Positions 3,405 to 54,690 of a stretch of 56,646 bases of DNA are shown here, piece after piece. A program made the translations under genes and the position numbers. The notes under the pieces were generated by a model. That model did not search any database. It saw nothing but the letters and a program-made list of their open reading frames with translations, and had not been told where the DNA came from. Source of the stretch: a virus; the IMG/VR virus record IMGVR_UViG_3300042934_000556, positions 1 to 56,646 of that record; one strand, given 5' to 3'. Every line of letters begins with the position of its first letter. Position 1 is the stretch's first letter.

Positions 3405-4006
3405 GCCGACTCTCCCATCCTCTGTTGCTTCACTTGAGCCCGGTACTCCTCGATGATCTGGTCATCGTGCCGGATCTTGTCGTAGACCGTCGCCAAGTAT
3501 GACCGGTCGATCGTCTCTGTCTGGTAGCCGTCGGCCTGGTAGATGCGGAGCTCGCCGTTGATCTCGAACGGCCTGAACTCGTACTCCAGACAGAATATGG
3601 CGGCGTACACATACAACTGATCGAACGAGGCCTTGGAGGTTCCGGTCTTGAGGTCATGAATCCGAAGGAACATGGCCACGGGATCGAACCCGATCGCGTC
3701 TACGGTGCCGAAGCAGTTGAAGGAGTAAAAGAGCTCCTTCTCCGGAAACAGACCCAAGTCCAAGGCGTCGTTGATGTAGTGACAGAGATAGTCACCGTCT
3801 CGAGGTTGGTAGCGCTCGAAGGTGATGGCTTCCGCAGCCCAGGCATGCAGCCTGGTGCCCCTCTCAGTGGCCCTGGCGTTCTCCAGACGGGCGATCAGCT
3901 TCTCAGGGTCGTCCCGGAGCCAGTGATACTTTGAGGGGCTCAGGAAGGCGTGTGTGCCTTCCACTTTCGGATGGGAGTTAAACCTGAAACTCTGCTCTGA
4001 GAGCAT
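3401..4006 (-). CDS. PD-(D/E)XK nuclease, RecB/Cas4-like
   Basis: 201 residues. The pattern fits the RecB-family nuclease fold: ERGTRLHAWAAEAI (early helix with histidine), then a D before a beta-strand (FGTVDAIGF) and IHDLKTGTSKASFDQLYVY, where D-x-K and the following Q are the usual catalytic and motif residues. A role in DNA end processing or recombination is likely. The ATG at 4006 has AGGA eight bases upstream. The gene overlaps the VRR-NUC gene by 29 bases, so the two nucleases are probably co-expressed. Confidence 0.8.
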   Translation of the reverse strand: MLSEQSFRFNSHPKVEGTHAFLSPSKYHWLRDDPEKLIARLENARATERGTRLHAWAAEAITFERYQPRDGDYLCHYINDALDLGLFPEKELFYSFNCFGTVDAIGFDPVAMFLRIHDLKTGTSKASFDQLYVYAAIFCLEYEFRPFEINGELRIYQADGYQTETIDRSYLATVYDKIRHDDQIIEEYRAQVKQQRMGESA

Positions 4007-4268
4007 CAAGCACTTCCTGTTCGTTCGAGGGATGGATGAAGGCCGCGAAGGACATGCCGTTCAGCAACTCGACGTAGTAGTTCTGGTTCGGCCTACTGGG
4101 CGCCTTCGCATTGGCCTTGACTTCAAGCATGGCCCACCGGCCTCCATGAAGGATCAGGAGGTCCGGTACACCCTGCAGGTAGCCCGGGTCATTCTTGAGA
4201 ATGAAGCAGCCGGGGAACATGCGCTCGAGCTTCACGATGAGCGTTTTTTGGTAGTCCCGCTCCAGCAC
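3978..4268 (-). CDS. VRR-NUC domain nuclease
   Basis: 96 residues, the whole protein being one VRR-NUC (PD-(D/E)XK superfamily) domain. GVPDLLIL supplies the first acidic residue and MLEVKAN the E-x-K motif, followed by the helix with SRPNQNYYVELLN. Family members act on structured or branched DNA, and phage versions sit among replication genes as here. GTG start with AAGGAG upstream. The N-terminal half has the typical D-Y-x-x-x-L-I helix. Confidence 0.9.
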   Translation of the reverse strand: MLERDYQKTLIVKLERMFPGCFILKNDPGYLQGVPDLLILHGGRWAMLEVKANAKAPSRPNQNYYVELLNGMSFAAFIHPSNEQEVLDALRAEFQV

Positions 4269-8128: not shown

Positions 8129-8628
8129 CAGTCTTCCTCCCCGACTCCGCAGTTGCACTTGGTGGCGCGACCCTCGCGGTCCCAGTTGCCCACTCGCTTC
8201 GGGCAGTCCCAGGCGTGGGGCATGTAGTAGGCCTCGGCCTCGACCACCGTACGGATGGCCCTCAGACCGGCGCTCTCCAGCTCCCCGGTCTCGTACCCAT
8301 CGGCGTTGTAGGCCGTCTTCCCCATGGACTCCAGGAGGCTCTTGAGCTCCTCACGGACGATCCGGCGGAGTCGTCCCTCCACCTGCTTGGCGATCTCCTC
8401 CTGGATGACGTCGCCGACGTTGTGCTGCTTCGGCTTGGCGCCGTCCATGTAGTCCTTGATGCTCATGACCTCGCCGGTCTTGGTGATGCGGACCCAGTGG
8501 ATGTTGGCCGCCTCGAAGTCGGTGACCCCCTCGAGCCACAGGGACGTCTCGAACGGCGAGCCGGTGTACAGCACCTCCTTGTTCTTGTCGAGAACGGAGT
8601 GCCAGTTGGGCATCTTGGTCTCACTCAT
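8128..8628 (-). CDS. Unknown protein with possible C-terminal zinc-binding residues
   Basis: 166 residues. The C-terminal 30 residues hold H-x3-C, C-x-C and nearby charged residues (HAWDCPKRVG... KCNCG), which could bind a metal. The middle (EEIAKQVEGRLRRIVREELKSLLESM) is helical or coiled coil. Coupled by overlap to the genes on both sides. Confidence 0.7.
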   Translation of the reverse strand: MSETKMPNWHSVLDKNKEVLYTGSPFETSLWLEGVTDFEAANIHWVRITKTGEVMSIKDYMDGAKPKQHNVGDVIQEEIAKQVEGRLRRIVREELKSLLESMGKTAYNADGYETGELESAGLRAIRTVVEAEAYYMPHAWDCPKRVGNWDREGRATKCNCGVGEED

Positions 8629-9020
8629 CAGTCGTCCTTACCCATGTCGAGGATCTTCCGGGTGGTTCGCTCGATATACGCCTCGAGCCTGGCAGGGTCT
8701 CGCTTGTAGATGGCAAGGTCCTTCTTGCGAAGGAGCTCCTTGACCATGCCGACGGCCGTCTCCCACTTCTCCTGGTAGAGGTACTCGGAAATGGTGACAA
8801 CCTGTTTGGTCTCTCCGACCAAGACGAACTTCCACGGCTCGGGGTATGGCGACCTGAGCCTGCGTCGCACCTCGTCCGGCTCCCCGGGAAATACGGGGCG
8901 CATGAACTCGTTCAGTACGGTGTCCACTACGATTCTCTCCCCTCTTGAGGTCTCCTCCGGAAATATGCCGTCAGAGAAGCCCCAGAACCTACCTCGTGGA
9001 ACCCGTCTAGGCGCTGACAT
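8628..9020 (-). CDS. Unknown protein related to the gene at 9090-9569
   Basis: 130 residues. The last 50 (VKELLRKKDLAIYKRD... IERTTRKILDM) align by eye with the C-terminus of the next gene upstream (VKRAMTEQDLATYYSK... ITEEILKLF), suggesting a shared domain. The N-terminus is arginine-rich (MSAPRRVPRGRFWGF). Start chosen at the ATG with GGAG seven bases upstream. Confidence 0.7.
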   Translation of the reverse strand: MSAPRRVPRGRFWGFSDGIFPEETSRGERIVVDTVLNEFMRPVFPGEPDEVRRRLRSPYPEPWKFVLVGETKQVVTISEYLYQEKWETAVGMVKELLRKKDLAIYKRDPARLEAYIERTTRKILDMGKDD

Positions 9021-9049
9021 AGCTCGGCTCCGAATATGAAAGTATGTGG

Positions 9050-9078
9050 GTGGGCGGCTTTTAGCGTCTTCCGCCCAC
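9050..9078 (-). terminator. Hairpin between genes
   Basis: GTGGGCGG (9050-9057) and CCGCCCAC (9071-9078) pair over 8 bases with a 13-base loop, directly after the stop of the 9090-9569 gene. There is no clear U-tract, so termination is likely partial if it occurs. Confidence 0.45.
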
Positions 9079-9089
9079 AGGACTGGTGC

Positions 9090-9569
9090 TCAGATGAACA
9101 GCTTGAGGATCTCCTCGGTGATGGCCTCGGCCGTCCCCTTGGTCTCGTCCGATCCCTTGCTGTAGTACGTCGCCAGGTCCTGCTCGGTCATCGCCCGCTT
9201 CACGAGCTGCAGCACCTGGTGGTTCCGGGCAGCGACCTCGGGTTCCGTCATGGCCTCCCGGTGGACCTTCTCCTCGCGGGTCTCGAACGTGGCCCTGTAG
9301 GCCTTGGTCTTGTAGACCATGAAGGAGGAGTCCTTCGGCGCGAAGACGATCCAGTCGCCGATGTACGCCCGGTCGACGTTCGTCACACCCTTGAAGCCGT
9401 GGACGATGAGGTCTATTCGCCGACCCATGACGCCGAGTTCGCTCGTGTGGTACATGCGGATATCGCCACCGCACCACCTGGCGACGGCCTCGATGTTCTC
9501 GTCGGTCACCTGAACAGCTCGTGCCGACCATGTCTTGCGGAAGACCTCGGTGGTCCCGATCTCGGTCAT
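9090..9569 (-). CDS. Conserved-type phage protein of unknown function
   Basis: 159 residues. The N-terminal part (RAVQVTDENIEAVARWCGG... RAYIGDWIVFAPKDSSFMVYKTKAYRATFE) has the look of a small beta-rich phage domain that I have seen annotated only as hypothetical. The C-terminus matches the following gene (8628-9020). ATG start with GGAG at good spacing. Confidence 0.75.
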   Translation of the reverse strand: MTEIGTTEVFRKTWSARAVQVTDENIEAVARWCGGDIRMYHTSELGVMGRRIDLIVHGFKGVTNVDRAYIGDWIVFAPKDSSFMVYKTKAYRATFETREEKVHREAMTEPEVAARNHQVLQLVKRAMTEQDLATYYSKGSDETKGTAEAITEEILKLFI

Positions 9570-9581
9570 CAGATCTCCATT

Positions 9582-9845
9582 CTAGGAGAAATCAAGCATG
9601 ATTGAAAGACGCTCCTCTTCAGTGAGAACGCCCCAGAACTGGAGGAGTTCGCGAGGCGTCAGCGGCTTCCATGGGACGTTGTCGAAGTAGAAGAACAGAG
9701 ACCACATGACTCCGGTGGCGTCCTGGCTGAATCCCTTCATGAGCTCGTAATCCAGGTACTCGTGGAACGAGATCTCGTTGGGAATATCAGCTTCTTCCCA
9801 GAGTTTCTTTAGGTCGTTCTGCCACTCCTCGAGGTTTTTTCCCAA
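9582..9845 (-). CDS. Small protein, paralogue of the gene at 7536-7868
   Basis: 87 residues starting at TTG with GGAGG six bases upstream. Rich in aromatic residues (VMWSLFFYFDNVPW) but without a clear membrane helix. The tail PLTPRELLQFWGVLTEEERLSIML parallels HPREIEHFRNSMTEEEWVEFKV in the 7536-7868 protein. The start overlaps the upstream membrane-protein gene by 37 bases. Confidence 0.65.
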   Translation of the reverse strand: MGKNLEEWQNDLKKLWEEADIPNEISFHEYLDYELMKGFSQDATGVMWSLFFYFDNVPWKPLTPRELLQFWGVLTEEERLSIMLDFS

Positions 9846-10006
9846 CCTGATCCTCCCCTTTCCAGACGTGCGCGACGGTATCTACGACGCTCTACCAGAA
9901 GACGAACCTCGTCGACCACCTTCAAGATCCCCAGCACGACGAGAGAAGCTCCGATGATGACCAAATAAGTCCAGAGCCAATTGAAGTCGGATATGAAGGT
10001 CTCCAT
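9809..10006 (-). CDS. Single-pass membrane protein, 65 residues
   Basis: A clear membrane helix spans about residues 11-30 (LWTYLVIIGASLVVLGILKV), followed by an arginine-rich tail that would lie in the cytoplasm. Function unknown. It lies in a run of three very small membrane-protein genes (10342-9809). Confidence 0.65.
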   Translation of the reverse strand: METFISDFNWLWTYLVIIGASLVVLGILKVVDEVRLLVERRRYRRARLERGGSGWEKTSRSGRTT

Positions 10007-10007
10007 G

Positions 10008-10241
10008 TCAGGCGACCTTGTTGAGCCGGTGGGTGCCGGTGGGGTTCTCCCGAAGGGCCAGGCGGGCGTGGTTGATCTTGGCGATGGCGTAGGTGAGCCG
10101 CGCCTCGTGGACCTTCTGCTCGGCCTCCTTGCGCTTCTTCTCCGCCTTGCGCCGGGCGAGGATGTCCGTTCCGTTGTCGACGCACCAGGCCACGGCTACG
10201 ACCGCGACCCACATGAGGACGACGAAGGTCAGTATGTTCAC
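10008..10241 (-). CDS. Single-pass membrane protein, 77 residues
   Basis: GTG start at 10241 with GGAG upstream. Residues 3-19 form a hydrophobic helix, followed by a lysine/arginine/glutamate-rich helical tail (RRKAEKKRKEAEQKVHEA). It overlaps the preceding 34-residue gene by 4 bases. Unknown function. Confidence 0.65.
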   Translation of the reverse strand: MNILTFVVLMWVAVVAVAWCVDNGTDILARRKAEKKRKEAEQKVHEARLTYAIAKINHARLALRENPTGTHRLNKVA

Positions 10242-10342
10242 TTCGAGTTCTCCTTCTTGATCTGTGATATGGCGATGCCGGTTGTGATTCCGACAAGAGC
10301 CATGATGAAACCGAAAGCCGTTCCGATGGCGAATGCGATCAC
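10238..10342 (-). CDS. 34-residue membrane peptide
   Basis: Starts with a GTG that overlaps the upstream stop as GTGA. Nearly the whole peptide is a single membrane helix (IAFAIGTAFGFIMALVGITT) ending in KKENSK. It is in frame with neither neighbour. Tight overlaps on both sides support a real gene despite its length. Confidence 0.55.
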   Translation of the reverse strand: MIAFAIGTAFGFIMALVGITTGIAISQIKKENSK

Positions 10343-10938
10343 CGGGACAGCACCTTCTCGTCGTCGAAGACCCACCCGGAGTCCGTGACGACCTCGGCCC
10401 CGTCCGGAGCCTCCAGGGCACGAACGCCACCCTCGAGGGGGATCTGCGGCGGTGCACCCTCGATCGGGATGTGGGCGTACTTCTTGTCGAGGTCGTCCTC
10501 GTGGAGGATGGCGAACATCGACTTCAGGTACGCGCTGACGCCCTGCTTGCCGCCGATGTTGTAGTTGTACGGGCTGATCTTGAGGTCGATGTTGTCGAAC
10601 TCGCCCCAGTCCATCATCCCGACGAGGTCCTCCTCGATCTGGGTGCGGCTGTTGGTCGACATGGTGACCAGGAAGATCCGGGGCGGACGCGGGCCGTCGA
10701 ACTTGACGTTGACCTTGAGGTGGTAGAAGGGCAGCTCGCCCTCCTCGCGCGGCGGCTTGACCTTGACGTTCCACCCGGCGGCCAGCATGGCCTCGCCCTG
10801 GACCGGGTCGAGGACCACGTGGAAGTTGCGGTAGCCCTTCGCGTTGTACATACCCTCGTTACCGGCGAAGTTCCGGTAGATGATCCGGGCTCCCTCCAGC
10901 GTGATCTCGTCGTCGACCCTGCGAACCAGTTGGCTCAT
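10339..10938 (-). CDS. Putative ssDNA-binding protein, internal start of the fusion
   Basis: Internal in-frame ATG with its own AGGAG ten bases upstream, giving a 199-residue protein. GARIIYRNFAGNEG, RNFHVVLDP, WNVKV and the KVNVKF/YNYNIGGKQGVSAYLKSMF pattern resemble a conserved phage protein I recall as a free-standing, OB-fold-like single-strand-binding candidate. That supports separate translation in addition to the fusion. Position beside replication genes fits. Not verified by search. Confidence 0.55.
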   Translation of the reverse strand: MSQLVRRVDDEITLEGARIIYRNFAGNEGMYNAKGYRNFHVVLDPVQGEAMLAAGWNVKVKPPREEGELPFYHLKVNVKFDGPRPPRIFLVTMSTNSRTQIEEDLVGMMDWGEFDNIDLKISPYNYNIGGKQGVSAYLKSMFAILHEDDLDKKYAHIPIEGAPPQIPLEGGVRALEAPDGAEVVTDSGWVFDDEKVLSR

Positions 10939-11337
10939 GTTGCTCTTGCTCCTAAATATCTGGGTGTTGATACTGGCCTTCTCGGCCAGTTCACTGCAGT
11001 GTGTTGCACCGTTCGATTCGTTGTGAATGAACGCAAGGCAACGGTCCGCGCCGAGCTTTACCATCTCCGCATTCCGAGCGAAGCCAGCACCTCTCTTGCG
11101 CGGACCGTTCCAGTCTGCCGGGTGACGCTCGACGCCGATGAGATGGGGGAGTACAGAGCCTCGCACTCGCGCCCACTCATCAGCATGAGAATCAGCCCCG
11201 GTAGGGCAAGCCCCGTGAACAACAACGAATTCGTCTTCGTCACTCTCGAGGAAATATGTCTCGAACAGCCAGTCGAGCTCTTCGAAGACAAGTGACTTGT
11301 CCGTCCAGTCCCGACTACCTGTTACCAGGACTCTCAT
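10339..11337 (-). CDS. SLOG (DUF2493)-type domain fused to a putative ssDNA-binding protein
   Basis: 332 residues with no stop between two distinct parts. Residues 1-132 match the DUF2493/SLOG Rossmann-like fold: MRVLVTGSRDW, VVHGACPTGADSHADEWA and GAGFARNAEMV, a nucleotide-binding pattern. Residues 134-332 are the protein described at 10339-10938. Start ATG at 11337 overlaps the previous stop, with GAGGT upstream. Because the reading frame runs through, translation from here must give the fusion. The SLOG part may sense or bind a nucleotide. Confidence 0.65.
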   Translation of the reverse strand: MRVLVTGSRDWTDKSLVFEELDWLFETYFLESDEDEFVVVHGACPTGADSHADEWARVRGSVLPHLIGVERHPADWNGPRKRGAGFARNAEMVKLGADRCLAFIHNESNGATHCSELAEKASINTQIFRSKSNMSQLVRRVDDEITLEGARIIYRNFAGNEGMYNAKGYRNFHVVLDPVQGEAMLAAGWNVKVKPPREEGELPFYHLKVNVKFDGPRPPRIFLVTMSTNSRTQIEEDLVGMMDWGEFDNIDLKISPYNYNIGGKQGVSAYLKSMFAILHEDDLDKKYAHIPIEGAPPQIPLEGGVRALEAPDGAEVVTDSGWVFDDEKVLSR

Positions 11338-43533: not shown

Positions 43534-43828
43534 CCCCTAGCCTCAGGAGAAGGCGGGGATTCTGCACCTCGACCTCAGAAACGGTCCACAGAGTCCCCGC
43601 CCACTCGACATAGCGAATGGCAAAGAAATGCTCGTTCGCGTAAGCATCTGCAACAACACTTATGGAGTTGCTCACCGAGAGGTCATTGTTGACACTCTCA
43701 CCTTCCCTGAACTTCAGCGAATTCCTGACCACGTCTCCAAAATATGAGAACTCTGTGATCTGGTCTTCGTGCACGCCGGGGGAGGTTTCAACAGTTACGC
43801 CGTATCCCACCTTTCCATAGAATCTCAT
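43499..43828 (-). CDS. Head-tail connector protein
   Basis: 109 residues. YGKVGYGVTVETSPGVHEDQITEFSYFGDVVRNSLKF and RYVEWAGTLWTVSEVEVQNPRLLLRLGGVYNGP are, to my recollection, a conserved connector family found next to the capsid gene. Start ATG lies inside a GTCAAAATG string seen at other late gene starts. Confidence 0.75.
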   Translation of the reverse strand: MRFYGKVGYGVTVETSPGVHEDQITEFSYFGDVVRNSLKFREGESVNNDLSVSNSISVVADAYANEHFFAIRYVEWAGTLWTVSEVEVQNPRLLLRLGGVYNGPRPETS

Positions 43829-43846
43829 TTTGACGCATCAGTCCGA

Positions 43847-45895
43847 TCAGGCAGACTTGCGCTTGAACGTCCAGGAGTCCTCCGCCGTGTTGGCGAAGTA
43901 GTAGCCGTCCAGGGCGACCGCGTAGACGGTCGTGGAGGCACCGGCCGCCAGAGCGGGCTGGGCACCCGGGGTCAGGACCGCGTCGTTGCTGTCACGGTAC
44001 TCCACGCCGGTGACCGTCGGGATGGTCACGACGCCGGTGGTCGAGTTGAAGGTCGGCTGAACCGGCTCGACGAGGTTGTCGGCAGACGCCACCGTCTTGA
44101 TGACCAGAGCCGACTTCGGTCGGATGAGGGCACCCGATGCACGGGTCTCCATCAGGTACTTGTACTGGTTGTAGTCGATGTCGAAGTCGTCGAACATCGT
44201 CAGCTCGCCACCACGGTCGGTGCCGACGTTGTAGTCCGCCAGGTTGACGATGATTCCGATCAGGTCGGAGATCTCCTTCATCGGCTCGACGGTGACGATC
44301 TTGTCGACGCCCAGCGCGTCCGCGACCTCGCCTCGGTTCTTGTAGAGCCGCTGACCGTTCAGGTCACGGGCCTGCAGGAACTTGTTGAGCTGGGGGATCG
44401 TGGTGAAGAACGTCGGGGTACCGGTCCCCTTGTAGTACTCCATGCCGTCCATGACGCCGTCGACGACGACCTCGTAGCCCAGGTCGTTTCCGGTGGCCGT
44501 CGGGTTGACGAACAGCGTGGTGACGAACAGCTCGTGGTCGTTGAGAATCGACCGGATGCCGGAGCCGCTGGAGGCGCCCATCGGGTCCTTGACCTTGTCC
44601 TCGTCGGCGATGTCTCGACCGTCACCGATGAGGACCGCACGTGCGAACTCCTCCTCGGTCATCAGACGCATCTCGCCCTTGAGGAAGGCGACCATGTCGA
44701 AGTCGGTGATGTCGAGCAGGTCGTCGCGGTCGAGCTTCTGCTTCTTGTAGATTGTGGTCGGGTCGGTGGTCCGCTTGGTGACGCCGAACCACTCCTCGCG
44801 CTTGTAGTTCCCCTTGATGTAGCCCTTGGCACGGGCCTCGTCCTGGGTCAGGTCGGCGGCGAAGGTCTTGATCCGGGAGAACGGGGTGTGTCGGGTGCTG
44901 TTGAGGACCGTGGCAACCCACTCGGTCCGACGCTTGTCGAGCTCGATGACGCCGGTCGCGGCCTTGGCGTCCGGGAACAGGATGTCGATGTTCTCGATGC
45001 CGTGCTGCAGGTTGTCCTTGGCGTACTGCTCGACAGCCGCCTTGAGAGAGCCGCGCTTCTCGGCGTCGGCGAAGATGCCCTTGAGGGCGTCGTGGGAGAG
45101 CTCGTGCTTGGCACTGCCCTTGTCGTCGGTGTTGGTCTGGTCGAAGACGTTGCGCGACATGTGGTTGCCGGCTCCTTCCTGGTGGGTGAGGTCGCCGCCA
45201 TCGGCGGACTTGTCGGAGTGCTCGGCGGAATTCGCCTTTGCTGCGTCCTGGAGTGCGACGCCGATCAGATAGTGGACGACGTTCTTCTGCTCTTCGTCGA
45301 AGGTCTCGTAGACGTCGTTGATGGTGAGATCGTCGTCGTCCTCGTCACCATCGGCGTGCTGAAGATCCTCGTCGTCCTCGTCACCGTCTTCCTCGTCTTC
45401 CTCGTCTTCCTCGTCGGAGTTTCCGGCGTGGTCGAGCTCGAGTCCCGTGTGGATGACGGCTTCGTCCTCAAGTGTCTCGAAGTCGCCATCGCCGTGGTTG
45501 ATGTTGACGAAGTCGATCTTGGCGCCGGGATTGGCCCCGGCCAGGACCAGGCTGACCTCGCGGATGATTCCGTGGAGGACTTCCTTGCCCTTCTCCACCA
45601 GGTTGTTGGCGTAGATGGAGAGATGCTTGATGTCACCGTGCTCGACGAGGCTTCGGGCGTTCTTCCCCTGCTCGGTGTCGTTGAAGAACGCGTAGGCGTA
45701 GACACCCTCGTCGCGGTGCTCGAGGACCGCGTGACCGAGGACGTTCTTCGCGTCGCTGTGTCCGTGCTGCCAGACCAGAGGAACCTGCTGGTGGTGCATC
45801 TTCTCGAAGGCACCGCGCATAATGGTCCGACCGTCGGAGCACCTGAGGCCAGCCTTGGTGGCCCAGCCGCCGAAGTCAGCTTCGATTACTGCCAT
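43847..45895 (-). CDS. Fused prohead protease, scaffold and major capsid protein
   Basis: 682 residues. About 20-135 is a U35-type HK97 prohead protease (WQHGH with H44; HLSIYA with S93; IIREVSLVLAGANPGA). About 157-255 is an extremely acidic, helical region (DEEDEEDEEDGDEDDED), presumably the scaffold. About 270-605 is the HK97-fold capsid protein. The last 74 residues (VVTIPTVTGVEY... DGYYFANTAEDSWTF) form an Ig-like domain also present on the tail-tube protein. Maturation cleavage would be expected between scaffold and capsid. Confidence 0.9.
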   Translation of the reverse strand: MAVIEADFGGWATKAGLRCSDGRTIMRGAFEKMHHQQVPLVWQHGHSDAKNVLGHAVLEHRDEGVYAYAFFNDTEQGKNARSLVEHGDIKHLSIYANNLVEKGKEVLHGIIREVSLVLAGANPGAKIDFVNINHGDGDFETLEDEAVIHTGLELDHAGNSDEEDEEDEEDGDEDDEDLQHADGDEDDDDLTINDVYETFDEEQKNVVHYLIGVALQDAAKANSAEHSDKSADGGDLTHQEGAGNHMSRNVFDQTNTDDKGSAKHELSHDALKGIFADAEKRGSLKAAVEQYAKDNLQHGIENIDILFPDAKAATGVIELDKRRTEWVATVLNSTRHTPFSRIKTFAADLTQDEARAKGYIKGNYKREEWFGVTKRTTDPTTIYKKQKLDRDDLLDITDFDMVAFLKGEMRLMTEEEFARAVLIGDGRDIADEDKVKDPMGASSGSGIRSILNDHELFVTTLFVNPTATGNDLGYEVVVDGVMDGMEYYKGTGTPTFFTTIPQLNKFLQARDLNGQRLYKNRGEVADALGVDKIVTVEPMKEISDLIGIIVNLADYNVGTDRGGELTMFDDFDIDYNQYKYLMETRASGALIRPKSALVIKTVASADNLVEPVQPTFNSTTGVVTIPTVTGVEYRDSNDAVLTPGAQPALAAGASTTVYAVALDGYYFANTAEDSWTFKRKSA

Positions 45896-45912
45896 TTTGA
45901 CTGTCTCCCTCC

Positions 45913-46404
45913 TTACTTCTTAGATGTTGTGTTCCGGGCTCCGACGGAGCCGTTCTTGCGCATCTTCTCGATCCGCTCCTGCATGGTCTTGATCTTCGCC
46001 TTTAGCGACTTGACCTCGTCTTCGAGAAGCTTGTCCTTGTTCTTCTCGTAGTACTCCTTGGACGCCTTTGCAGCCTTGGATTTCTGAGCTGCAGTCTGCT
46101 TAGTCGATGACTTCGCTGCGGACGAAGCCTTCTTCTCTGGCGTCTTTTTGGTTTCAGCGCCACTTCGGGCTTTGGCCTGCTCGGTCAATACCGTCAGAGC
46201 CTTACGAAGCTTTTCCAACCGACTTTTGAGGGCTGTCACTTCGGCCTCGAGCTTCTTGCGCCTTTCGGCTTGACGCTGGGCTCTGGTCTTGGTCGCTGGC
46301 TTGAGTGTGACGCCCTTCTTCGTACGACCCTTCAACTGACGGGTCTTCAAGTAGTAGGCGCGTCGTTTCGCCGGGTCGTACTCGTGGACGATCTCGTCAG
46401 CCAT
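45913..46404 (-). CDS. Lys/Ala-rich coiled-coil protein between portal and capsid
   Basis: 163 residues from the ATG that overlaps the portal stop (TGATG). It begins with YDPAKRRAYYLKTRQLKGR, a second short conserved motif I have seen in phages carrying the HYG tag, followed by two coiled coils flanking a Lys/Ala/Ser linker. It may be an assembly or internal head protein. Confidence 0.7.
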   Translation of the reverse strand: MADEIVHEYDPAKRRAYYLKTRQLKGRTKKGVTLKPATKTRAQRQAERRKKLEAEVTALKSRLEKLRKALTVLTEQAKARSGAETKKTPEKKASSAAKSSTKQTAAQKSKAAKASKEYYEKNKDKLLEDEVKSLKAKIKTMQERIEKMRKNGSVGARNTTSKK

Positions 46405-47753
46405 CATTCGGCCCCAAGGCTCTGGAGCATGGAGTCGATCATCGCATTGGCTTCAGCGATTCCGCTCTGAACCAGATCTTCCCCTTCGTCTTCGGAGTCC
46501 TCCTCTTCCAAGGCAGAGCCCGAATCGACCGGAGATGTTGTTGGATCTCCGGCCTGAGGCATGTTGCTGTTGACAAGCTGGTCGGCCTTCGGGTCCTTGG
46601 AGGGTTTGAAGCCGATGCCCTGTCGGATCTCGTTGGCGGAGAGGACTTCGTTTCGAGTGAACTTGTCGGCGATCTCAGCGATCTGCTCCATCGGAACGAG
46701 CTTGAACGGGTCGCGGAAGTACATGATCGACTGCTTCTGAGACCGGGCCGTTTTGGTCAGGAAGGTCTTCTTCATGGCCTCCGAGATCGCCTGAACGACG
46801 GGCTCGATGGTCCGGCTGAAGTAGTTCAGCATGGCCTTCTCGTCAGCCGTGCCGTTCATGACCTCCTCCGTCAGACCAAGCTGAGCGTAGAGGATGCTCG
46901 TGAGGTACTCGATCTGCTTGAGGAGATTGTTCTCGACCGGCCGGTTGAGCTGCGTGATTTTCTCGGTACCATCGGTATAGGCGATACCGTACTGACTCCC
47001 CTTGAGCTGGAACTCAATATCCTTACGCCTTTGTTCGGCTTGCTGCCGTCTGGCTTCGGATTTGATCACGTAAGGAAGCTGAATGATCATGTCGAGCTTA
47101 CCGGAACTCGACTGCTCGTCCACCGAGTCCAACATGTTGAGCTTGTGAATGAGTCGTTTAAGTGTCGAGTTCGGTTCGTTCATCACCGAATATAGGGGGT
47201 TCTCGACGATCGCGGTGTACTTCTTTTCGACCGTGACTTGCTTCCTCTGCCCAACCCGGTCGTCGTAAAGACTTACTGTTACGTGTCGGGGATGCCATGC
47301 CACGATCTCGCCGACTCGAAGACTCCGGATGGTATAACTCGCCGACTCGGACGGATTAATATCTGTCTCTACCGGAACGATCGCCGCCGTACCATGTTCG
47401 AACAGCGTCATTGCTATGTCCTGACGGAACTGTCGGGCGCCCTGGTCGATGTTGGGTTCAACCTGGAGACAATCCTGGAGTCCGCTGTCCATGTCTTCGA
47501 GGTAACGTCCCTCCTCGTCGGTTCGGACGTGTCGAATATCGACACCAGCGACATCGATACCGAGCCTGGTGTAGATTGACGAGATGATGGATCGTTCGCT
47601 GGAATATGACGACCGACTACGACTCGAAGGAGAGTAGTAGTACCCTGTACTCTCGTGTCCGCCGAAGGAGCGGACGCCGGTGTAGTTGTCATCGAGAAAG
47701 ACGTTCCAACTGTGCTTGAGAGTCCTCTTTACTCGCGAAAGCAAACCTGCCAT
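46404..47753 (-). CDS. Portal protein
   Basis: 449 residues. Upstream of capsid and downstream of terminase, with portal features: IYTRLGIDVAGVDIRHV near the start, a central stem region (QIEYLTSILYAQLGLTEEVMNGTADEKAMLNYF) and the C-terminal NEVLSANEIRQGIGFKPS, a classic portal phrase. The final 50 residues are acidic. It forms the DNA entry ring in the capsid vertex. Confidence 0.9.
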   Translation of the reverse strand: MAGLLSRVKRTLKHSWNVFLDDNYTGVRSFGGHESTGYYYSPSSRSRSSYSSERSIISSIYTRLGIDVAGVDIRHVRTDEEGRYLEDMDSGLQDCLQVEPNIDQGARQFRQDIAMTLFEHGTAAIVPVETDINPSESASYTIRSLRVGEIVAWHPRHVTVSLYDDRVGQRKQVTVEKKYTAIVENPLYSVMNEPNSTLKRLIHKLNMLDSVDEQSSSGKLDMIIQLPYVIKSEARRQQAEQRRKDIEFQLKGSQYGIAYTDGTEKITQLNRPVENNLLKQIEYLTSILYAQLGLTEEVMNGTADEKAMLNYFSRTIEPVVQAISEAMKKTFLTKTARSQKQSIMYFRDPFKLVPMEQIAEIADKFTRNEVLSANEIRQGIGFKPSKDPKADQLVNSNMPQAGDPTTSPVDSGSALEEEDSEDEGEDLVQSGIAEANAMIDSMLQSLGAE

Positions 47754-47789: not shown

Positions 47790-48446
47790 CTAACCGATCC
47801 CCATGTTCTTGAGCATCTCCTGGGCAGACTTTTGACCGTTCGGATCGGTAGCCTTCTTGTAGGCCTTCTTACCAGCGTCGGCAATGGTCTTGTCGATACC
47901 GGCCTTGTGGGCCCAGAGAGCGCCTCCGACCACGATTGCCGTTGCCGCCGAGGCATACTGCGAATTACCTCTGAGGATATGGCTCGTGCCTCGAATACCC
48001 TTGCGGGTGCTGTTTGCAACGTTCTTGCGTTTACGCTCGCCCTTGGCCTTGTCTGCGTGCTTGGACATGTCCTGATTGGACAGATGAGCGTCGAAGGCCT
48101 TCTTGTACGCCGGATTCTTACTCTTGCCCTCGACCTTGGCTTTGATCAGCTTTCGTCGAGTACCAGCGCCTTCGCCGTAGAACATCTTGGCTCGGGCGAA
48201 CTCCTTGGCATCCTTGGCGGCGTCTCGGTTGATCGATCTGGACACTCCGTTGGGGCGGGACTTACGGATGCCCCATTTCATACCCTTGACACCGTAGTGA
48301 ACAAGTTCGCCGTTTACATAAGAGTGGAAGAACTCATCGTCCAAGATAACAGCTCCCGGAGCATTGCGAATCTCTTCGAGTCTCCGCGTCATACTCTCCT
48401 CATCGGGGATTTGAGAGGGCAATATGAAACCGGGGGACCTGTACAT
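47790..48446 (-). CDS. HYG-tagged protein 1, next to portal
   Basis: 218 residues. It starts MYRSPGFILPS, like the next gene, and carries HYGVKGMKWGIRK at 50-62. The following AKDAKEFARAKMFYGEGAGTRRKLIKAKVE... ERKRK region is basic and helical, and the C-terminus has a hydrophobic stretch (ASAATAIVVGGALWAHKAG). A head-internal or DNA-associated protein is plausible. No enzyme motif seen. Confidence 0.8.
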   Translation of the reverse strand: MYRSPGFILPSQIPDEESMTRRLEEIRNAPGAVILDDEFFHSYVNGELVHYGVKGMKWGIRKSRPNGVSRSINRDAAKDAKEFARAKMFYGEGAGTRRKLIKAKVEGKSKNPAYKKAFDAHLSNQDMSKHADKAKGERKRKNVANSTRKGIRGTSHILRGNSQYASAATAIVVGGALWAHKAGIDKTIADAGKKAYKKATDPNGQKSAQEMLKNMGIG

Positions 48447-48447
48447 G

Positions 48448-49281
48448 TTACTTCACCTCCTTAAAAGGTGTTGGGTCGACACCCATCTCTTTGTGTAGAG
48501 TTTTACCCCATTCCTGAACGTACCTTGGCGGGTTGGTCCCCCAGTGATATGCACTGAAGAGTTCAGCTTCCAACTCGCCTCTCTCCATGGTGCTCATCGC
48601 GTAATCGGATACGTCCCAGATTTGGCGTCCCTCGCGAGCGGCTACTTTCTGAGCAACCTTCAGAGCCTTGTTTCGAGCTTCGATGTTCCCACCCGAGACC
48701 TTTTGCCTACCACGAGAATCGGTAGTCAATTGCTGGGTGGAATGAAATATGGCGTGAGAATTCTCATGAGTGATCAGACCCTTCACGTTACCGGTACCCG
48801 CGTGGTTCCAATTCCCATCGGCATCTTGGAGCTCACGGCGCATGTCTCGAGCGCCGACGAAGATTGTACCTTCGTTAGCCGAACCGAGTTCCTGAGTGTT
48901 CTCTACGAAAGCGAGGAAACTCTTCTCGAGTTCAGGCGTGTATATCGGGTGACTTTTGTCGAAGACCTTTACGTCCTTGACTGTGTAACCGTACCGATCA
49001 TGCATGAGACGAGCAACTTCGAGAGCACCCGAGGCAGTGCTACTGTGAACTCGAGAATCAATTCTAGGCGGTGTGAAAGGCTGCCTAGAGGTCGTCTCCT
49101 CGTCCTTACGAACACCCCACTTCATACCCTTGACACCATAGTGAACAAGTTCACTGTCGAAGTCGCTGAATTCGAATAGAGTAAAACCCGTAGTTTCCTC
49201 GGATCGCCTTCGAAGATCGTCTTTGAGTTCTTCCTGGGAAGAATATGCCGACGGAAGGACGAATCCAGGCGTTCTGGACAT
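48448..49281 (-). CDS. HYG-tagged zincin-like metallopeptidase 1
   Basis: 277 residues. N-terminus MSRTPGFVLPS matches the neighbour at 47790-48446. Tag HYGVKGMKWGVRK at 47-59. Catalytic-type motif HENSH at 172-176 with GELEAELFSAYHW (236-248) offering the third, glutamate ligand, a gluzincin arrangement. Close paralogue of the next gene. It would be expected to cleave a host or virion protein; the substrate is unknown. Confidence 0.8.
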   Translation of the reverse strand: MSRTPGFVLPSAYSSQEELKDDLRRRSEETTGFTLFEFSDFDSELVHYGVKGMKWGVRKDEETTSRQPFTPPRIDSRVHSSTASGALEVARLMHDRYGYTVKDVKVFDKSHPIYTPELEKSFLAFVENTQELGSANEGTIFVGARDMRRELQDADGNWNHAGTGNVKGLITHENSHAIFHSTQQLTTDSRGRQKVSGGNIEARNKALKVAQKVAAREGRQIWDVSDYAMSTMERGELEAELFSAYHWGTNPPRYVQEWGKTLHKEMGVDPTPFKEVK

Positions 49282-49284
49282 CGG

Positions 49285-49989
49285 TCACTTCCTTTCCTTG
49301 AATGGGGTCGGGTCGATCCCCATTTCTGCGTGAAGAGTCTGCCCCCATACCGTTACGAAAGAAGGCGGTTTCGGATGCCAGTGGTACTGTGAGAAGAGTT
49401 CGGCTTCGATCTCCTCATGGCCGTGCGAGGAAGCTGCGTAACCAGACAGCTTCTCCAATAGTCTGTGTTCTGATATACCCTTACGCTGTGCCTCGTCGAC
49501 CATGGCTTGGAGAGCCTTCATTCGGGCTTCTTTCTCCCCACCAACTACCTTTCCATTCTCGTCGTACTTCTCCCGTGAATGGAATATCGCGTGTGCAGAT
49601 TCGTGGGTGATGAGCCCTATCGGGTTCCCCAAACCTTTCCCTACCCAGCCCGTCTTCTCGGAGGCCTTCATCTCTCGAGTGGGATCACGTATGGCGAGGT
49701 AAATATCACCTTCGAGTTTTTGCTTACCATTGTTCGCAACGTAACCGAGGGTGCCTCTCGAGTATTCTTCGTGACCAGGAGCGATGGCTTTGATCTCTCG
49801 AACCTTGTAGCCGTATCGCTCTTGGATCAGAGCTGCGACCTCACGAGCGGCTTGCTGGGAAACCACATGGACTCTAGAGTCCATCTTGGGGCTTTCGCCA
49901 ACGGACTGAAAACGTCCAGCGACATCATCATCCTTACGGACGCCCCACCGCATACCCTTGACGCCATAGTGGACGAGTTCGTCGGTCAT
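49285..49989 (-). CDS. HYG-tagged zincin-like metallopeptidase 2
   Basis: 234 residues. The tag HYGVKGMRWGVRK occupies residues 7-19, almost at the N-terminus. HESAH (129-133) and EEIEAELFSQYHW (192-204) match the metal site of its neighbour, and the ending MGIDPTPFKERK matches MGVDPTPFKEVK there. A tandem duplication with divergence in the region before the catalytic motif. Confidence 0.8.
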   Translation of the reverse strand: MTDELVHYGVKGMRWGVRKDDDVAGRFQSVGESPKMDSRVHVVSQQAAREVAALIQERYGYKVREIKAIAPGHEEYSRGTLGYVANNGKQKLEGDIYLAIRDPTREMKASEKTGWVGKGLGNPIGLITHESAHAIFHSREKYDENGKVVGGEKEARMKALQAMVDEAQRKGISEHRLLEKLSGYAASSHGHEEIEAELFSQYHWHPKPPSFVTVWGQTLHAEMGIDPTPFKERK

Positions 49990-50960
49990 GACCCCAGCTT
50001 GTGGTCGCTCTTCTTGTGGGCGGCGAGAGCGAGGCTAGAGAGGCTTACTGTTCCGTAGGCCTTCAGAATATCCGAGGTCTTGGCCTTGCCGGTGGCCAGA
50101 CGCTTTTCCTGATCTCGAAGCTTCTTGGCTCTACGAGCTGCCTCGTTCTTGAGGCCACCGCTCCGGACGAGGTTGGCGGCCGTGGAGTTCATGGCGGTTG
50201 CGAACTTCTCCATCTTCGTAGCCGTGCCGTCTGCCACTCTTTCTAGACGGGCTGCGCGGAGATTCAAGTCGCCGGTTCGAGCCTTGCGGACGCCCCACTT
50301 CATACCCTTGACGCCGTAGTGCTTGAGTTCGGAATGCTTCGCTTCATCGAAGTTGTATTCCATGTTCGTCAGACCTCCCCACATTCCGGCGCCAGATCCT
50401 GTCACTTCTCCGGTCACCTTGAAGCCGAGCTTCTCATAGATATGCCTAGCGTCGGGAGAGATCCCGGGTACTTCGAGGGTCATCTTCTTGAAGCCCTCCT
50501 GCTTACCAAAATCCCGTCCAGCCTGCATGACGGCTGTAGCATAACCTTTACCACGAGCGGACTTGTCGATCCCAAGCCAATTGAGATAAAGCTCGTCCTT
50601 GTTTCGCTTCGTGACGTAGGCATCTCCGACCTTTTTACCGGAGCCATCCAAGATGTCGAGACTGGCGTTCTTCGAGTACCACTCGCGATACTTCTTACTC
50701 ATCCTACCCGTGAGTTCAGCGACCTTGGTGGGCGGGACTTTCTGGAGTGTGATGGTCTCTCCCGAAGCCGTCTTACGACTTACCGTGTCCGGTCCGAGAG
50801 ATTTGAGTGGTTCTCGCGTTGGCTTGTCGGACTTCCGAACACCCCACTTCATACCCTTAACACCGTAGTGCTTGAGTCCCTCGCTCATTTCGGCAATGTT
50901 GCTCTCGATGAGATCGAGGAGGTCTCCGTACTCCGCTTCGAGATTGAAATCACTACTCAT
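49986..50960 (-). CDS. GNAT acetyltransferase with two HYG tags
   Basis: 324 residues. First tag at 31-43, second at 214-226. Between them (about 70-205) lies a GNAT domain: LYLNWLGIDKSARGKGYATAVM carries the R-x-x-G-x-G/A acetyl-CoA loop (136-141), and ARHIYEKLGFKVTGE is the usual final helix-strand. The part after the second tag is basic and helical, like the tag-linked tails of other members, so this looks like a fusion of two tagged genes. The ATG lies in a GTCAAAATG string. Confidence 0.85.
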   Translation of the reverse strand: MSSDFNLEAEYGDLLDLIESNIAEMSEGLKHYGVKGMKWGVRKSDKPTREPLKSLGPDTVSRKTASGETITLQKVPPTKVAELTGRMSKKYREWYSKNASLDILDGSGKKVGDAYVTKRNKDELYLNWLGIDKSARGKGYATAVMQAGRDFGKQEGFKKMTLEVPGISPDARHIYEKLGFKVTGEVTGSGAGMWGGLTNMEYNFDEAKHSELKHYGVKGMKWGVRKARTGDLNLRAARLERVADGTATKMEKFATAMNSTAANLVRSGGLKNEAARRAKKLRDQEKRLATGKAKTSDILKAYGTVSLSSLALAAHKKSDHKLGS

Positions 50961-50989
50961 TTTGACAGGACCTCCCTTCGAGGTCTCGT

Positions 50990-52030
50990 TTAGTACTTAC
51001 GATTCTCCAACTCGATGAGGCTGGCTTCGGCGAAGTTGATGTCGTCCTTGGTGAGAGGTTCATTCGACTTCTTACCGACAAGCTCACGAGCGAAGATGAC
51101 GAGAGGAGTCTCTCCGATGACGCCAGCGTCCATCTCATCGACAATTGCTCCATAACCCTTCTTACGGAGTGCGTCGAACATTCCCATGGCGTGGCCGTCA
51201 CTCCAACTACCACCACTGAGCTCTTGATACTTGGCCAAGACTCGTTCATCCGTGTACCAAGCCTCGAACTCTTTCTTACCGCCTATCAGAGATTCTTTCA
51301 GTGCTTCGAGTGTGGTCGACAGCTTTGGAACTCGAATGTCTTGCTCGGCTTGAAAGGTTACATGGTGAAGTGGTCCGAGCAGCTCTTGGCGGAACTGAGA
51401 TACATATCGATGGTAGTCTTCCAGGCTGTGAGTGGAATACGTCGCATCTCGAAACTCGGTTTCCGCTTTTTGTGAGAGTCGATGAAACTCGTGACCAGCC
51501 GGAAGGGTGAACTCGTCCCGCTCCCAAGAACTGTCTTTGATGTAGTCGTTACTACCCCAAGTTTTGATCTTGGAATGCATGACGTGCTTATGGAACGTCT
51601 CTGGACTGATCGACTTTCCGCGAAGTTCCTCAATGGACTTTACGGTCTTGGCTTCAGCAATCGCATTTGCTGCGATCAGACCAGCAATGGCACCGGTGAA
51701 TATCAGAGCTTTCTTGTGTCTGGCAACAAAGCTCTTCTTGGTTGGCTTCTCGTCTGAACCTTCGAGCTTGGCCTGAGACTTCTTCTCGTTGGCCTCCAGG
51801 TTTTTCTTGATCTGTTTGGCGTTGGGTTCCTTCTTGGGCTTGTGCGCCTTCTTCCACTTCTTGTCAGCGGAAGTCATGCGGTACTTGCCGGTCTCCTCGT
51901 CCTTTCGGACACCCCACTTCATACCCTTGACGCCGTAGTGGGTAAGAAACCTCTCGCTTCGGAGAATATCGTCAATGGCCGAGGCACCATGCTGAAGTAT
52001 CCGAGCAATCTCGTCTTCCGAACTACTCAT
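50990..52030 (-). CDS. HYG-tagged protein, possible ADP-ribosyltransferase
   Basis: 346 residues. Tag at 31-43, a Lys-rich region, a hydrophobic helix (about 108-127, ALIFTGAIAGLIAANAIA) and a C-terminal domain (about 165-320). This domain has FTLPAGHEFHRLSQ, DATYSTHSLEDYHRYV and GYGAIVDEMDAGVIGETPLVIF. The order R, then S-T-x-S, then acidic loop is reminiscent of ADP-ribosyltransferases, but the catalytic glutamate is not certain. Alternatively a structural protein. Confidence 0.6.
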   Translation of the reverse strand: MSSSEDEIARILQHGASAIDDILRSERFLTHYGVKGMKWGVRKDEETGKYRMTSADKKWKKAHKPKKEPNAKQIKKNLEANEKKSQAKLEGSDEKPTKKSFVARHKKALIFTGAIAGLIAANAIAEAKTVKSIEELRGKSISPETFHKHVMHSKIKTWGSNDYIKDSSWERDEFTLPAGHEFHRLSQKAETEFRDATYSTHSLEDYHRYVSQFRQELLGPLHHVTFQAEQDIRVPKLSTTLEALKESLIGGKKEFEAWYTDERVLAKYQELSGGSWSDGHAMGMFDALRKKGYGAIVDEMDAGVIGETPLVIFARELVGKKSNEPLTKDDINFAEASLIELENRKY

Positions 52031-52042
52031 TTCACCTCCTTC

Positions 52043-53788
52043 CTACTCGAACTGTTCCTTGTTGAGCTTGTAAGCGATGAAAGCATCCATCATCGCAGCA
52101 ACGTTGTCGATCTTGGCTTCCTGACGCTTCTTAAGAAGCTTTCGGTTGCCGTTCGTGTCCTCCATGGTAATGGCGTTACCCATGGCAAAGGTCATCAGTG
52201 CCTGATCAAATATGAGCAAACGTTCGCCACTCAGAGCCTTGAGTTCCCCAAGCGGGACCGACTCTGTCTTCGCCCCCTGAATCACTTTCTCGATGCCGTA
52301 AGGCCCGTTCTCCGCTTCCCAGCGGGCTACAAACTCCTTTGCGTTGTAGGGGTCGAAACCAAGTGCGCGCACATCATAGTTACAGTCCTGGATATGGACG
52401 TCCAGGTCGTCGTAGACCTCCATCATGTCGAGGATCGTTCCCTCAAGAACGTGGAGGCTGCCCTCGTCTATGAACTCGTTGTACTTTTGGCGCATAGCTC
52501 CATGGAGCTTGAGCAAGGTCAACGAGGAAATGTAGCTGCGGGTCTTTACGCCAAATCCTCCGCCTCGCAGAGGGAAGATGAATGTGAACGCACAGAAGTC
52601 GTCACCCTGAGAGAGGTCCGCTCCAAGAGCGCAAGGCATTCCCCAGAAGGTTCGAGGATGGTGAGGCAGAGTCTCTTCGTAAGTGAAGAAGTACGTATAC
52701 CCCTCCATCGGAATCCCGAAACGCTTTGCCAGAATATCGTTCCGGGAAGCAGGAGCCTTCTCGGCTCGTTCAACGTCGAGTTGGTAGGTGTCATAGGTGA
52801 CGGTCTTCCCGAGATTGGGATTGGCCTTCAACCACATCGCCGGGTTTCCGACCTCTTCCAACTCATCCAATCGGTAATGCCAGATCGAAACGTGAGGTGC
52901 TTGATACTCGCCCTTGAGAATATCGGCAAGCTCGAGCTTGATGGTGTCACCGCTGCCGTTTCGAACGGTTCCCTCGGAGCTGACGGCTACAATGAGATAG
53001 TCGTCCAGCTTGGAAGAACCCTGTTCGATGGCGCCAATGACGTCTTCCCGGAGATCTCCCGAAAGCCACTCGTCGACGGTCGCTACCTTGGTTCGGAGGC
53101 CTTGGAGCTTGTTGATGGTCATTGGCCGGACCTCGAGCATCGATCCCGTGAGGAAGTTCTCGATACCCTTCTTGGTGGCAGCCAGTTTGACTCGGTTGGC
53201 CTTGGAACCAGTCGTGTTCTGTAGTGACCCTTCGGTCATGAACGAAAATAGCGGACCGCGACTTCTGGTGATTGCGGTCCTGATCGGCTGCATGACCTCT
53301 TCGGCTTGCTTCATGGTCGGAGCCGTGGTGATCTGGTGAGTCGTCGAGGTGTCCACGTTCAGAAAATAGCTCTGAAGACACGACTCATAGAGCGACTTGG
53401 CGGCGCCTCGTGCAACGATGAGGTACTGCTTGGTTGTCAACCGCTTCTTGATAACCTTGTCGACGTACCTACCCCCATGGTTGTCGGGATCGGGTTCGTA
53501 GACGCTCCGGTTGATGAAGTAGTACCAGCAGAATATCTGTTCGGCCCAGAGCTTGAACGAGTCGAGCAGATGAAGGTCACTCCCGTCGGTGAGAGTTAGT
53601 TCCTTCTCACAGTAGAGGACGAAGCCCTCGACCGGAGCAGGATCGTAGTAGATGTTCGGGTTGGCGATGAGTGCGTCGATGCGGTTCATCTCCAAGGAGA
53701 CTTCTCGGTTGACCGGAATATCACCGCGCATCACCGCCTCACGGAACTTGCCGTAGTAGTACGGTGTTGCCGTGTTCGACAGAGCCAT
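52043..53788 (-). CDS. terL: Large terminase subunit
   Basis: 581 residues. ATPase part with Walker A-like VARGAAKS (125-132) and Walker B VATVDEW (235-241); nuclease part beginning with ALGADLSQGDD (387-397, first catalytic Asp D391) and the later DCNYDVRALGFDPYNA segment typical of HK97-type terminases. Packages DNA into the prohead. Located between HYG-tagged genes. Confidence 0.95.
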   Translation of the reverse strand: MALSNTATPYYYGKFREAVMRGDIPVNREVSLEMNRIDALIANPNIYYDPAPVEGFVLYCEKELTLTDGSDLHLLDSFKLWAEQIFCWYYFINRSVYEPDPDNHGGRYVDKVIKKRLTTKQYLIVARGAAKSLYESCLQSYFLNVDTSTTHQITTAPTMKQAEEVMQPIRTAITRSRGPLFSFMTEGSLQNTTGSKANRVKLAATKKGIENFLTGSMLEVRPMTINKLQGLRTKVATVDEWLSGDLREDVIGAIEQGSSKLDDYLIVAVSSEGTVRNGSGDTIKLELADILKGEYQAPHVSIWHYRLDELEEVGNPAMWLKANPNLGKTVTYDTYQLDVERAEKAPASRNDILAKRFGIPMEGYTYFFTYEETLPHHPRTFWGMPCALGADLSQGDDFCAFTFIFPLRGGGFGVKTRSYISSLTLLKLHGAMRQKYNEFIDEGSLHVLEGTILDMMEVYDDLDVHIQDCNYDVRALGFDPYNAKEFVARWEAENGPYGIEKVIQGAKTESVPLGELKALSGERLLIFDQALMTFAMGNAITMEDTNGNRKLLKKRQEAKIDNVAAMMDAFIAYKLNKEQFE

Positions 53789-53803
53789 CGTCGACCCTCC
53801 CTT

Positions 53804-54352
53804 CTACGGTCTCCGTTCGCGCTCTCGTGCGATGTTCCTAGCAATGGCTCCGGCTCCTGCGGCTACGGCAGCAGAAGTGCCGCCAGTCGCGTAAGCAGCT
53901 CCTGCCGAAAGGGCCGTACCGAGACCCGTCTTGACGGCCTTTCCGGTTTCCGTCTCCAGGAATTTCCGAACCTTCTCGACGGTCTCGCCGTAAGCGAGAA
54001 CCTTCTTGACCTGATCGTGGCCCTTGTCGACAGATGACTTCTGGGGAGACCCAGGCGGGGGTGTCACAATATTCCGGTACTGGCGTTCCAGGTTCATGCG
54101 GGTCAGAAGACCTTGGAGTTCCTGGTTGCTGAGCGAATGTGTCCCGCCTTCGGCAATCTTGCGCTGGGCGTCCATGGCAGCCTTGACGTCGGCCGAGACC
54201 TTGGGTTTCGAAGCCGATCGAGACTCGGATGATCCGCCGGAACCGCCCGCTCGAGCGAGTTCTGCATCGGAGCGACGTACGCCCCACTTCATGCCCTTGA
54301 CACCGTGATGACTCAGGCTGCCGGAATAACCTCCGGGTCGGGATCGATCCAC
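53804..54352 (-). CDS. HYG-tagged small protein
   Basis: 182 residues from GTG 54352 (AGAGGAGG upstream). Tag HHGVKGMKWGVRR at 15-27. The remainder is Ser/Gly-rich, then helical, with a C-terminal alanine/glycine-rich hydrophobic stretch (GLGTALSAGAAYATGGTSAAVAAGAGAIA). No enzymatic motif. It starts inside the connector gene (40-base overlap) and precedes the terminase. Confidence 0.75.
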   Translation of the reverse strand: MDRSRPGGYSGSLSHHGVKGMKWGVRRSDAELARAGGSGGSSESRSASKPKVSADVKAAMDAQRKIAEGGTHSLSNQELQGLLTRMNLERQYRNIVTPPPGSPQKSSVDKGHDQVKKVLAYGETVEKVRKFLETETGKAVKTGLGTALSAGAAYATGGTSAAVAAGAGAIARNIARERERRP

Positions 54353-54690
54353 TGGTCCTCCTCTCGCAGGACGTTGAGGCGCCACTCAAGTTCGGCGGCG
54401 GTCTTGTTCATGGCATCGAGGGCGAACGAGGTCCCTGGAGGATCGAAGAGAAGTCGTACCTTCAAGTACAGATACGACTTCACCATGTTCATCCGTGAGT
54501 CGCCCCCGATGAAGCTTTCCCACGTGGCCGTAGAGTCCTCGATCATGAACCCTTCGGTCGGACCTATCCCGACTTGGGTCAGGACTGAGATCATGCTGTT
54601 AAGATGAAGCATGATGTCGAGGTCGAACGAGGTGTCAGCCTCACTGAGACCGATGAGCTTCTTCGTTGACGTAAGGATGCTCTGCGCCAC
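54313..54690 (-). CDS. Head-tail connector, gp6-like
   Basis: 125 residues, all-helical. MAQSILTSTKKLIGLSEADTSFDLDIMLHLNSMISVLTQVGIG and a second half ending EWRLNVLREEDQWIDPD match the gp6/gp15-type connector family that sits below the portal. Its location beside the terminase instead of the capsid is unusual. GTG start with AAGGAGG upstream. Confidence 0.75.
   Translation of the reverse strand: MAQSILTSTKKLIGLSEADTSFDLDIMLHLNSMISVLTQVGIGPTEGFMIEDSTATWESFIGGDSRMNMVKSYLYLKVRLLFDPPGTSFALDAMNKTAAELEWRLNVLREEDQWIDPDPEVIPAA

Follow-up and report, generated by a model that had tools for sequence, protein, structure and literature searches.

A short peptide on unrelated phage proteins as a probable head-loading signal of one HK97-type head lineage

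Why should the genes around the terminase and portal of a phage encode one and the same short peptide in proteins with very different domains? The question is raised by the IMG/VR virus record IMGVR_UViG_3300042934_000556, Streptomyces phage DNA near the Rimavirus group, which was analyzed over its whole length of 56,646 nucleotides (hereafter, the window). Six minus-strand open reading frames (ORFs) between and beside the terminase and portal genes hold seven copies of a peptide motif, which we call the tag. The best explanation, to which we assign a probability of about 0.7, is that the 15-residue core of the tag is a portable head-loading signal acting like the capsid targeting sequence (CTS) of phage T4. 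The tag occurs on many unrelated proteins, almost only in one head type, suggesting that it is probably an address label for particle loading.

The motif corresponds to the Pfam family DUF7211 (PF23847), which spans 25 residues and has no assigned function in Pfam. All six window proteins scored above the curated cut-off of the DUF7211 profile (40–78 bits vs 27), and the acetyltransferase (GNAT) protein contained two DUF7211 stretches. The sequence HYGVKGMKWGVRK was found exactly in four of the seven copies, and the other three differed by one or two residues: the copy at 48299 ends in WGIRK, that at 49971 contains GMRWG, and that at 54310 reads HHGVKGMKWGVRR. Twenty shuffled versions of the window contained no match even to a looser, 8-residue form of the motif, which excludes chance for the seven copies. 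An earlier, sequence-only reading of the window had placed seven copies in six genes by the portal and terminase, mostly within the first 60 residues. These positions were found again, with six copies inside that limit and the seventh at approximately residue 215 of the GNAT protein. The sixth gene, which had been given as 53804–54352, also stands, with the refinement that its start may lie at 54385 (GTG). No paper on the motif came up in the literature, either under its sequence strings or under DUF7211. What was already known is a Pfam family without a function; its link to a head lineage, its concerted variation, and its HYGKKGMRWG-type variants are new.

Tagged loci were collected from IMG/VR, GTDB genomes, and annotated phages by means of DNA patterns and terminase or capsid homology, giving a survey of approximately 470 loci. 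The first set contained 568 tagged proteins with 611 copies from approximately 240 loci; when all sets were pooled, there were 908 tagged ORFs (817 distinct), and the 517 complete tagged proteins formed 280 sequence clusters. The DUF7211 profile matched 148 of 150 diverse tagged proteins. When 150 diverse tagged proteins were aligned, only the H, G, G, W, and G columns were invariant, and the core read L-x-H-[HY]-G-[VI]-K-G-[MQ]-[KR]-W-G-[VI]-R-[RK]. The information profile had sharp edges, at L (−4) and R/K (+10), with the G, G, W, and G columns being partly fixed by the search filter. Most copies (519/611) were within the first 60 residues and the others further in, including on portal tails; in other words, the tag can sit at the N terminus, internally, or on the tail of a portal. 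In AlphaFold2 models of the ADP-ribosyltransferase-like protein and one zincin of the window, the domains were confident and the tag had a per-residue confidence (pLDDT) of approximately 60 or below, so that in these two models it is predicted to be disordered and outside the folded enzyme domain. The possibility that the motif is an integral part of one conserved fold was rejected, because the tag is disordered in both models and is spread over approximately 280 sequence clusters with diverse partners. These results support the view that it is an independent module, conserved at the protein level.

The domains joined to the tag that Pfam recognized were GNAT, papain-type glutamine deamidase, Ntox50, DUF6883, 2H phosphoesterase, DUF5662, P-loop, and portal domains, and most partners had no Pfam match. 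A profile search of the joined domains across phages, as had been proposed earlier, thus recognized predicted effector- and toxin-like enzymes. Of the partners suggested for the window proteins, the GNAT enzyme and the two zincins held up as well, and the possible ADP-ribosyltransferase stays a candidate. GNAT had a Pfam match. In the zincin-like pair, T-H-E-x-x-H and E-A-E-L-F were invariant in six homologues, and by the HExxH motif and the downstream Glu ligand, both proteins are predicted to be zincin metallopeptidases. The model of the larger one (48448–49281) resembled lethal-factor/PPEP-type zincins (gluzincins) with Z scores of 7–8; with Foldseek alone, no zincin match stood out clearly, and the resemblance came from a second comparison (VIA). 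Residues 165–342 of the 50990–52030 model resembled MbcT (Z 7.6), ParT (6.4), the catalytic domain of diphtheria toxin (6.2), and the anti-CRISPR protein 6kyf (4.6), a coherent match list of the ADP-ribosyltransferase superfamily in which every Z score was under 8, and the comparison supports a predicted ADP-ribosyltransferase fold. The same domain resembled residues 1419–1604 of a pre-ejectosome protein of cyanophage A4 (PDB 9k3a; Z 7.0), a resemblance that counts in favour of head loading. PDB sequence searches with the ADP-ribosyltransferase-like profile, the zincin profile, and the capsid fusion gave no convincing match, and the matches from PADLOC were all weak. As a group, the tagged proteins were basic (charge per residue of +0.08 vs −0.02), and 21% of them contained a membrane-helix-like segment, compared with 8% of length-matched neighbours; this segment was C-terminal to the tag in 161 of 163 cases. 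Effector-like partners and a membrane-helix-like segment that nearly always follows the tag might also mean that the tag works after injection, directing effectors to the host membrane, nucleoid, or RNA polymerase. We regard this as very improbable, because the tag goes with the head type and not with the host, in Actinobacteria and Firmicutes alike, and because portal proteins are tagged too.

Two further arrangements were seen among the tagged proteins. In Firmicutes prophage contigs (L391, L392, L401, L405, L418, L438, and others), DUF5662 is followed by the tag, often with a GPPYPL extension, and then by a variable C-terminal domain (Ntox50, DUF6883, or others), a polymorphic-toxin-like architecture. 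A second motif, LS[ND]xELxxxVxRMNLExQYxxL, was present in 73 of 908 tagged proteins vs 5 of 28,690 other ORFs, and marks a widespread small tagged protein beside the terminase (53804–54385 in the window; L006, L146, L231, and others).

The tag is tied to one head lineage, whose hosts range from Streptomyces to Lactococcus and Faecalibacterium. When the tag (E up to 10) and the protease–capsid fusion of the window were searched with tblastn against 50,697 phage records, the tag was found in 242 and the fusion in 244. The counts per genus (tag/fusion) were 95/95 in Arthrobacter, 55/55 in Gordonia, 54/54 in Streptomyces, 11/13 in Lactococcus, 7/7 in Curtobacterium, 4/4 in Rhodococcus, 4/4 in Microbacterium, and 2/2 in Faecalibacterium. 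All 14 annotated phages of this head lineage that were opened carried the tag. In the reverse control, it was present in 71 of 76 complete cassettes (42/45 seeded with the terminase and 29/31 with the capsid), and four of the five untagged cassettes held a variant that the filter had missed, such as HYGKKGMRWG. In loci including the terminase, tagged genes were always on its strand (515/515 and 197/197), and nearly all of those in the IMG/VR set were upstream of the portal. The earlier statement that tagged genes all lie beside head genes is not general, however: in Caudovirus D_HF5_2C they are downstream of the capsid gene, and in some Firmicutes prophage contigs they are tens of kilobases from the terminase. 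Such distance from the head operon argues against a merely positional feature. It also speaks against the idea that the tag binds the terminase, the packaging motor, or DNA, and that tagged genes are packaging accessories, with the missing small terminase perhaps among them. Tagged genes do flank the large terminase gene, both the tag and the tagged proteins are basic, and the scanned part of the cassette yielded no recognizable small terminase; nevertheless, as many as nine tagged genes in one phage that encode unrelated enzyme domains, tags on portal tails, and a tagged protein of Lactococcus phage 1706 (gp07) annotated as structural make a packaging role improbable.

If the tag is a loading signal, it would bind a constant component of one HK97-type head family, marked by its terminase, portal, and S78 protease–capsid fusion genes, during head assembly. 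Through this binding, unrelated proteins would be drawn into the procapsid as cargo, to travel in the virion and enter the next host along with the DNA. The cargo would comprise GNAT, zincin, ADP-ribosyltransferase-fold, 2H phosphoesterase, and toxin-like enzymes, as well as small basic or membrane-helix proteins. Encapsidation and injection of the tagged proteins are steps that we infer. The closest parallel is found in the internal proteins IPI–IPIII of T4, which have only an N-terminal leader in common that directs their packaging (PMC12373910; PMC9026906), are basic (PMC9026906), and have anti-defence functions (PMC9026906; PMC12373910). In both systems, one short peptide is carried by several otherwise unrelated, basic proteins per phage, which are head proteins in T4 and candidate head proteins here. 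The T4 CTS, however, is a strictly N-terminal propeptide of 10–19 residues, whereas the tag is often internal and even on portal tails, belongs to a head of the HK97 type in which protease and capsid protein are fused, and accompanies a broader enzyme repertoire; the two are alike in anatomy. We did not file DUF7211 as a T4-type CTS, because it is not strictly N-terminal, the head type is different, and we only infer that it suffices for packaging. A similar effector repertoire is known from the MuF and polyvalent proteins of portal–terminase phages, which include zincin, GNAT, 2H, ADP-ribosyltransferase, and toxin domains and are thought to be packaged and injected (PMC5512222). What is credited with delivery in those systems is a structural domain, MuF or portal, or a large multidomain protein; a 15-residue tag has no part in that account. 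The MuF domain had no match among the 150 tagged proteins, portal fusions occurred in four loci only, and the motif stem GXKGM is absent from the text of PMC5512222.

The constant receptor candidates are the terminase, the portal, and the protease–capsid fusion. The terminase is not retained in the virion, and the C-terminal tail of known portals faces the head interior. In four loci (L071:6486–8108, L116:7306–8961, L237:5124–6578, and L421:2–1168), it is this tail that carries the tag, so that the tagged portals look like customers, and the portal is disfavoured as the sole receptor. A dedicated scaffold gene is also disfavoured, because the interval from the portal to the capsid fusion was without a gene in 168 of 231 cassettes. 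Recognition had earlier been ascribed to portal, scaffold, or capsid; together, the geneless intervals and the tagged portals narrow this, by elimination, to the protease/scaffold part of the capsid fusion as the favoured candidate, a region that would be situated within the procapsid. The more specific proposal that a peptide code read by this part of the fusion loads many proteins, in a head lineage of phages and prophages of Actinobacteria and Firmicutes, is tentative, and we hold it to be somewhat short of an even chance. A protease fused to the capsid protein might alternatively mean that the prohead protease recognizes or cuts the motif, in which case tagged proteins would enter as its substrates and the tag would be mainly a processing signal; indeed, the T4 signal both targets and is processed (PMC9026906). 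However, the tag often lies between domains (GNAT–tag–domain, DUF5662–tag–toxin, and 2H–tag–domain), where cleavage would split them, and the capsid fusions, presumably substrates themselves, are without the tag. A pure processing site is thus unlikely, and cleavage at the tag is compatible with a loading signal as an added step.

Tags also varied in concert within a phage. The identity at variable columns was 0.68 between unrelated proteins of the same phage vs 0.56–0.64 between homologues (15–60% identity) from other phages, and matched triples favoured tag sharing within a phage (1684 vs 905). For example, all nine tagged genes of the 113-kb phage Paella have HYGVxGMKWGK, and L347 likewise has phage-specific tag forms. 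Shared variants within a phage are as recognition by a phage-specific partner predicts, and tag copying can contribute. The M/Q flavour was rejected as a strict phage-specific code, with 64 mixed contigs vs 171 expected by shuffling. The modular spread across unrelated genes and a surplus of common codons within a phage could be taken to mean a linker of recombination or mosaic exchange, or a selfish DNA cassette, without protein function. This reading is the least probable of those considered, because the tag has 854 distinct nucleotide versions with largely free synonymous codons and sharp-edged amino acid conservation; codon use in the tag was close to that of the same genes. Some tag positions had a codon preference common across phages (for example, the first Gly as GGC).

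The earlier suggestion of a sorting signal is thus in agreement with an independent module, one head lineage, and effector-like partners, and several points weigh against it. The virion support for tagged proteins is a single database annotation: gp07 of Lactococcus phage 1706, which bears a form of the second motif in addition to its two tags, carries the label "structural protein". This label reportedly goes back to mass spectrometry by Garneau et al. in 2008, a study cited in PMC4155818. For ReqiPepy6 gp019, the name "structural" comes from similarity alone. Approximately 15% of the tag copies lie beyond residue 60, unlike the strictly N-terminal T4 signal. The agreement between tag and fusion is one of genus-level counts, not record-by-record lists, and part of the association could come from inheritance within the lineage alone, because neighbouring genes stay together. 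The homogeneity of tags within a phage is partly phylogenetic, and their codon agreement (0.52 vs 0.42 expected from local codon use) suggests that some tag copying or gene conversion may contribute.

In the window (Table 1), the order on the minus strand is the terminase, five tagged genes, the portal, a K-rich coiled-coil gene, and the protease–capsid fusion, with the sixth tagged gene upstream of the terminase. No tag was found in the terminase, portal, coiled-coil protein, or capsid fusion of the window. The tagged basic protein next to the portal had 24 distinct members across the collected loci. The second unit of the GNAT fusion is a separate gene in Psst2 (L006), a double-stranded DNA Streptomyces phage in which two genes (3776–4102 and 8436–11219) are annotated as RNA-dependent RNA polymerase. 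Antisense to the capsid fusion (window 43769–46051, plus strand) runs an open frame of 760 codons, likely a by-product of high G+C content.

Table 1. Tag copies, tagged genes, and head genes of the window; for tag copies, the higher coordinate is the first base of the H codon
Feature	Position	Strand	Evidence
Tag copy HYGVKGMKWGIRK	48261..48299	-	Translated search and Pfam
Tag copy HYGVKGMKWGVRK	49105..49143	-	Translated search and Pfam
Tag copy HYGVKGMRWGVRK	49933..49971	-	Translated search and Pfam
Tag copy HYGVKGMKWGVRK, second, internal copy of the GNAT protein	50283..50321	-	Translated search and Pfam
Tag copy HYGVKGMKWGVRK, first copy of the GNAT protein	50832..50870	-	Translated search and Pfam
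Tag copy HYGVKGMKWGVRK	51902..51940	-	Translated search and Pfam
Tag copy HHGVKGMKWGVRR	54272..54310	-	Translated search and Pfam
S78 prohead protease–major capsid protein fusion, phrog_3270, head lineage marker	43847..45895	-	
K-rich coiled-coil protein, 164 aa, portal–capsid interval, possible scaffold	45913..46407	-	
Portal protein, head lineage marker	46404..47753	-	
Tagged basic protein, 218 aa, phrog_6291, adjoins portal	47790..48446	-	
Tagged zincin-like metallopeptidase (predicted), 277 aa, HENSH	48448..49281	-	
Tagged zincin-like metallopeptidase (predicted), 234 aa, HESAH, paralogue of 48448..49281	49285..49989	-	
Tag–GNAT acetyltransferase–tag–phrog_17496 domain, 324 aa, two tagged units fused	49986..50960	-	
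Tag–membrane-helix-like segment–predicted ADP-ribosyltransferase-fold domain, 346 aa, phrog_7502	50990..52030	-	
Terminase large subunit, head lineage marker	52043..53788	-	
Tagged small basic protein, second motif LSNQELQGLLTRMNLERQY, 193 aa, phrog_11022, upstream of terminase	53804..54385	-	

If the proposed code is real, this head lineage would have a modular delivery system in which virions carry enzymes of the polymorphic-toxin type into new cells. As a loading signal, the tag would be the equivalent of the T4 targeting sequence for siphophages of Gram-positive bacteria, and the injected proteins of the lineage would be predictable from sequence alone. Furthermore, hundreds of unannotated phage genes would become predicted virion-delivered effectors, many of them perhaps directed against host defence.

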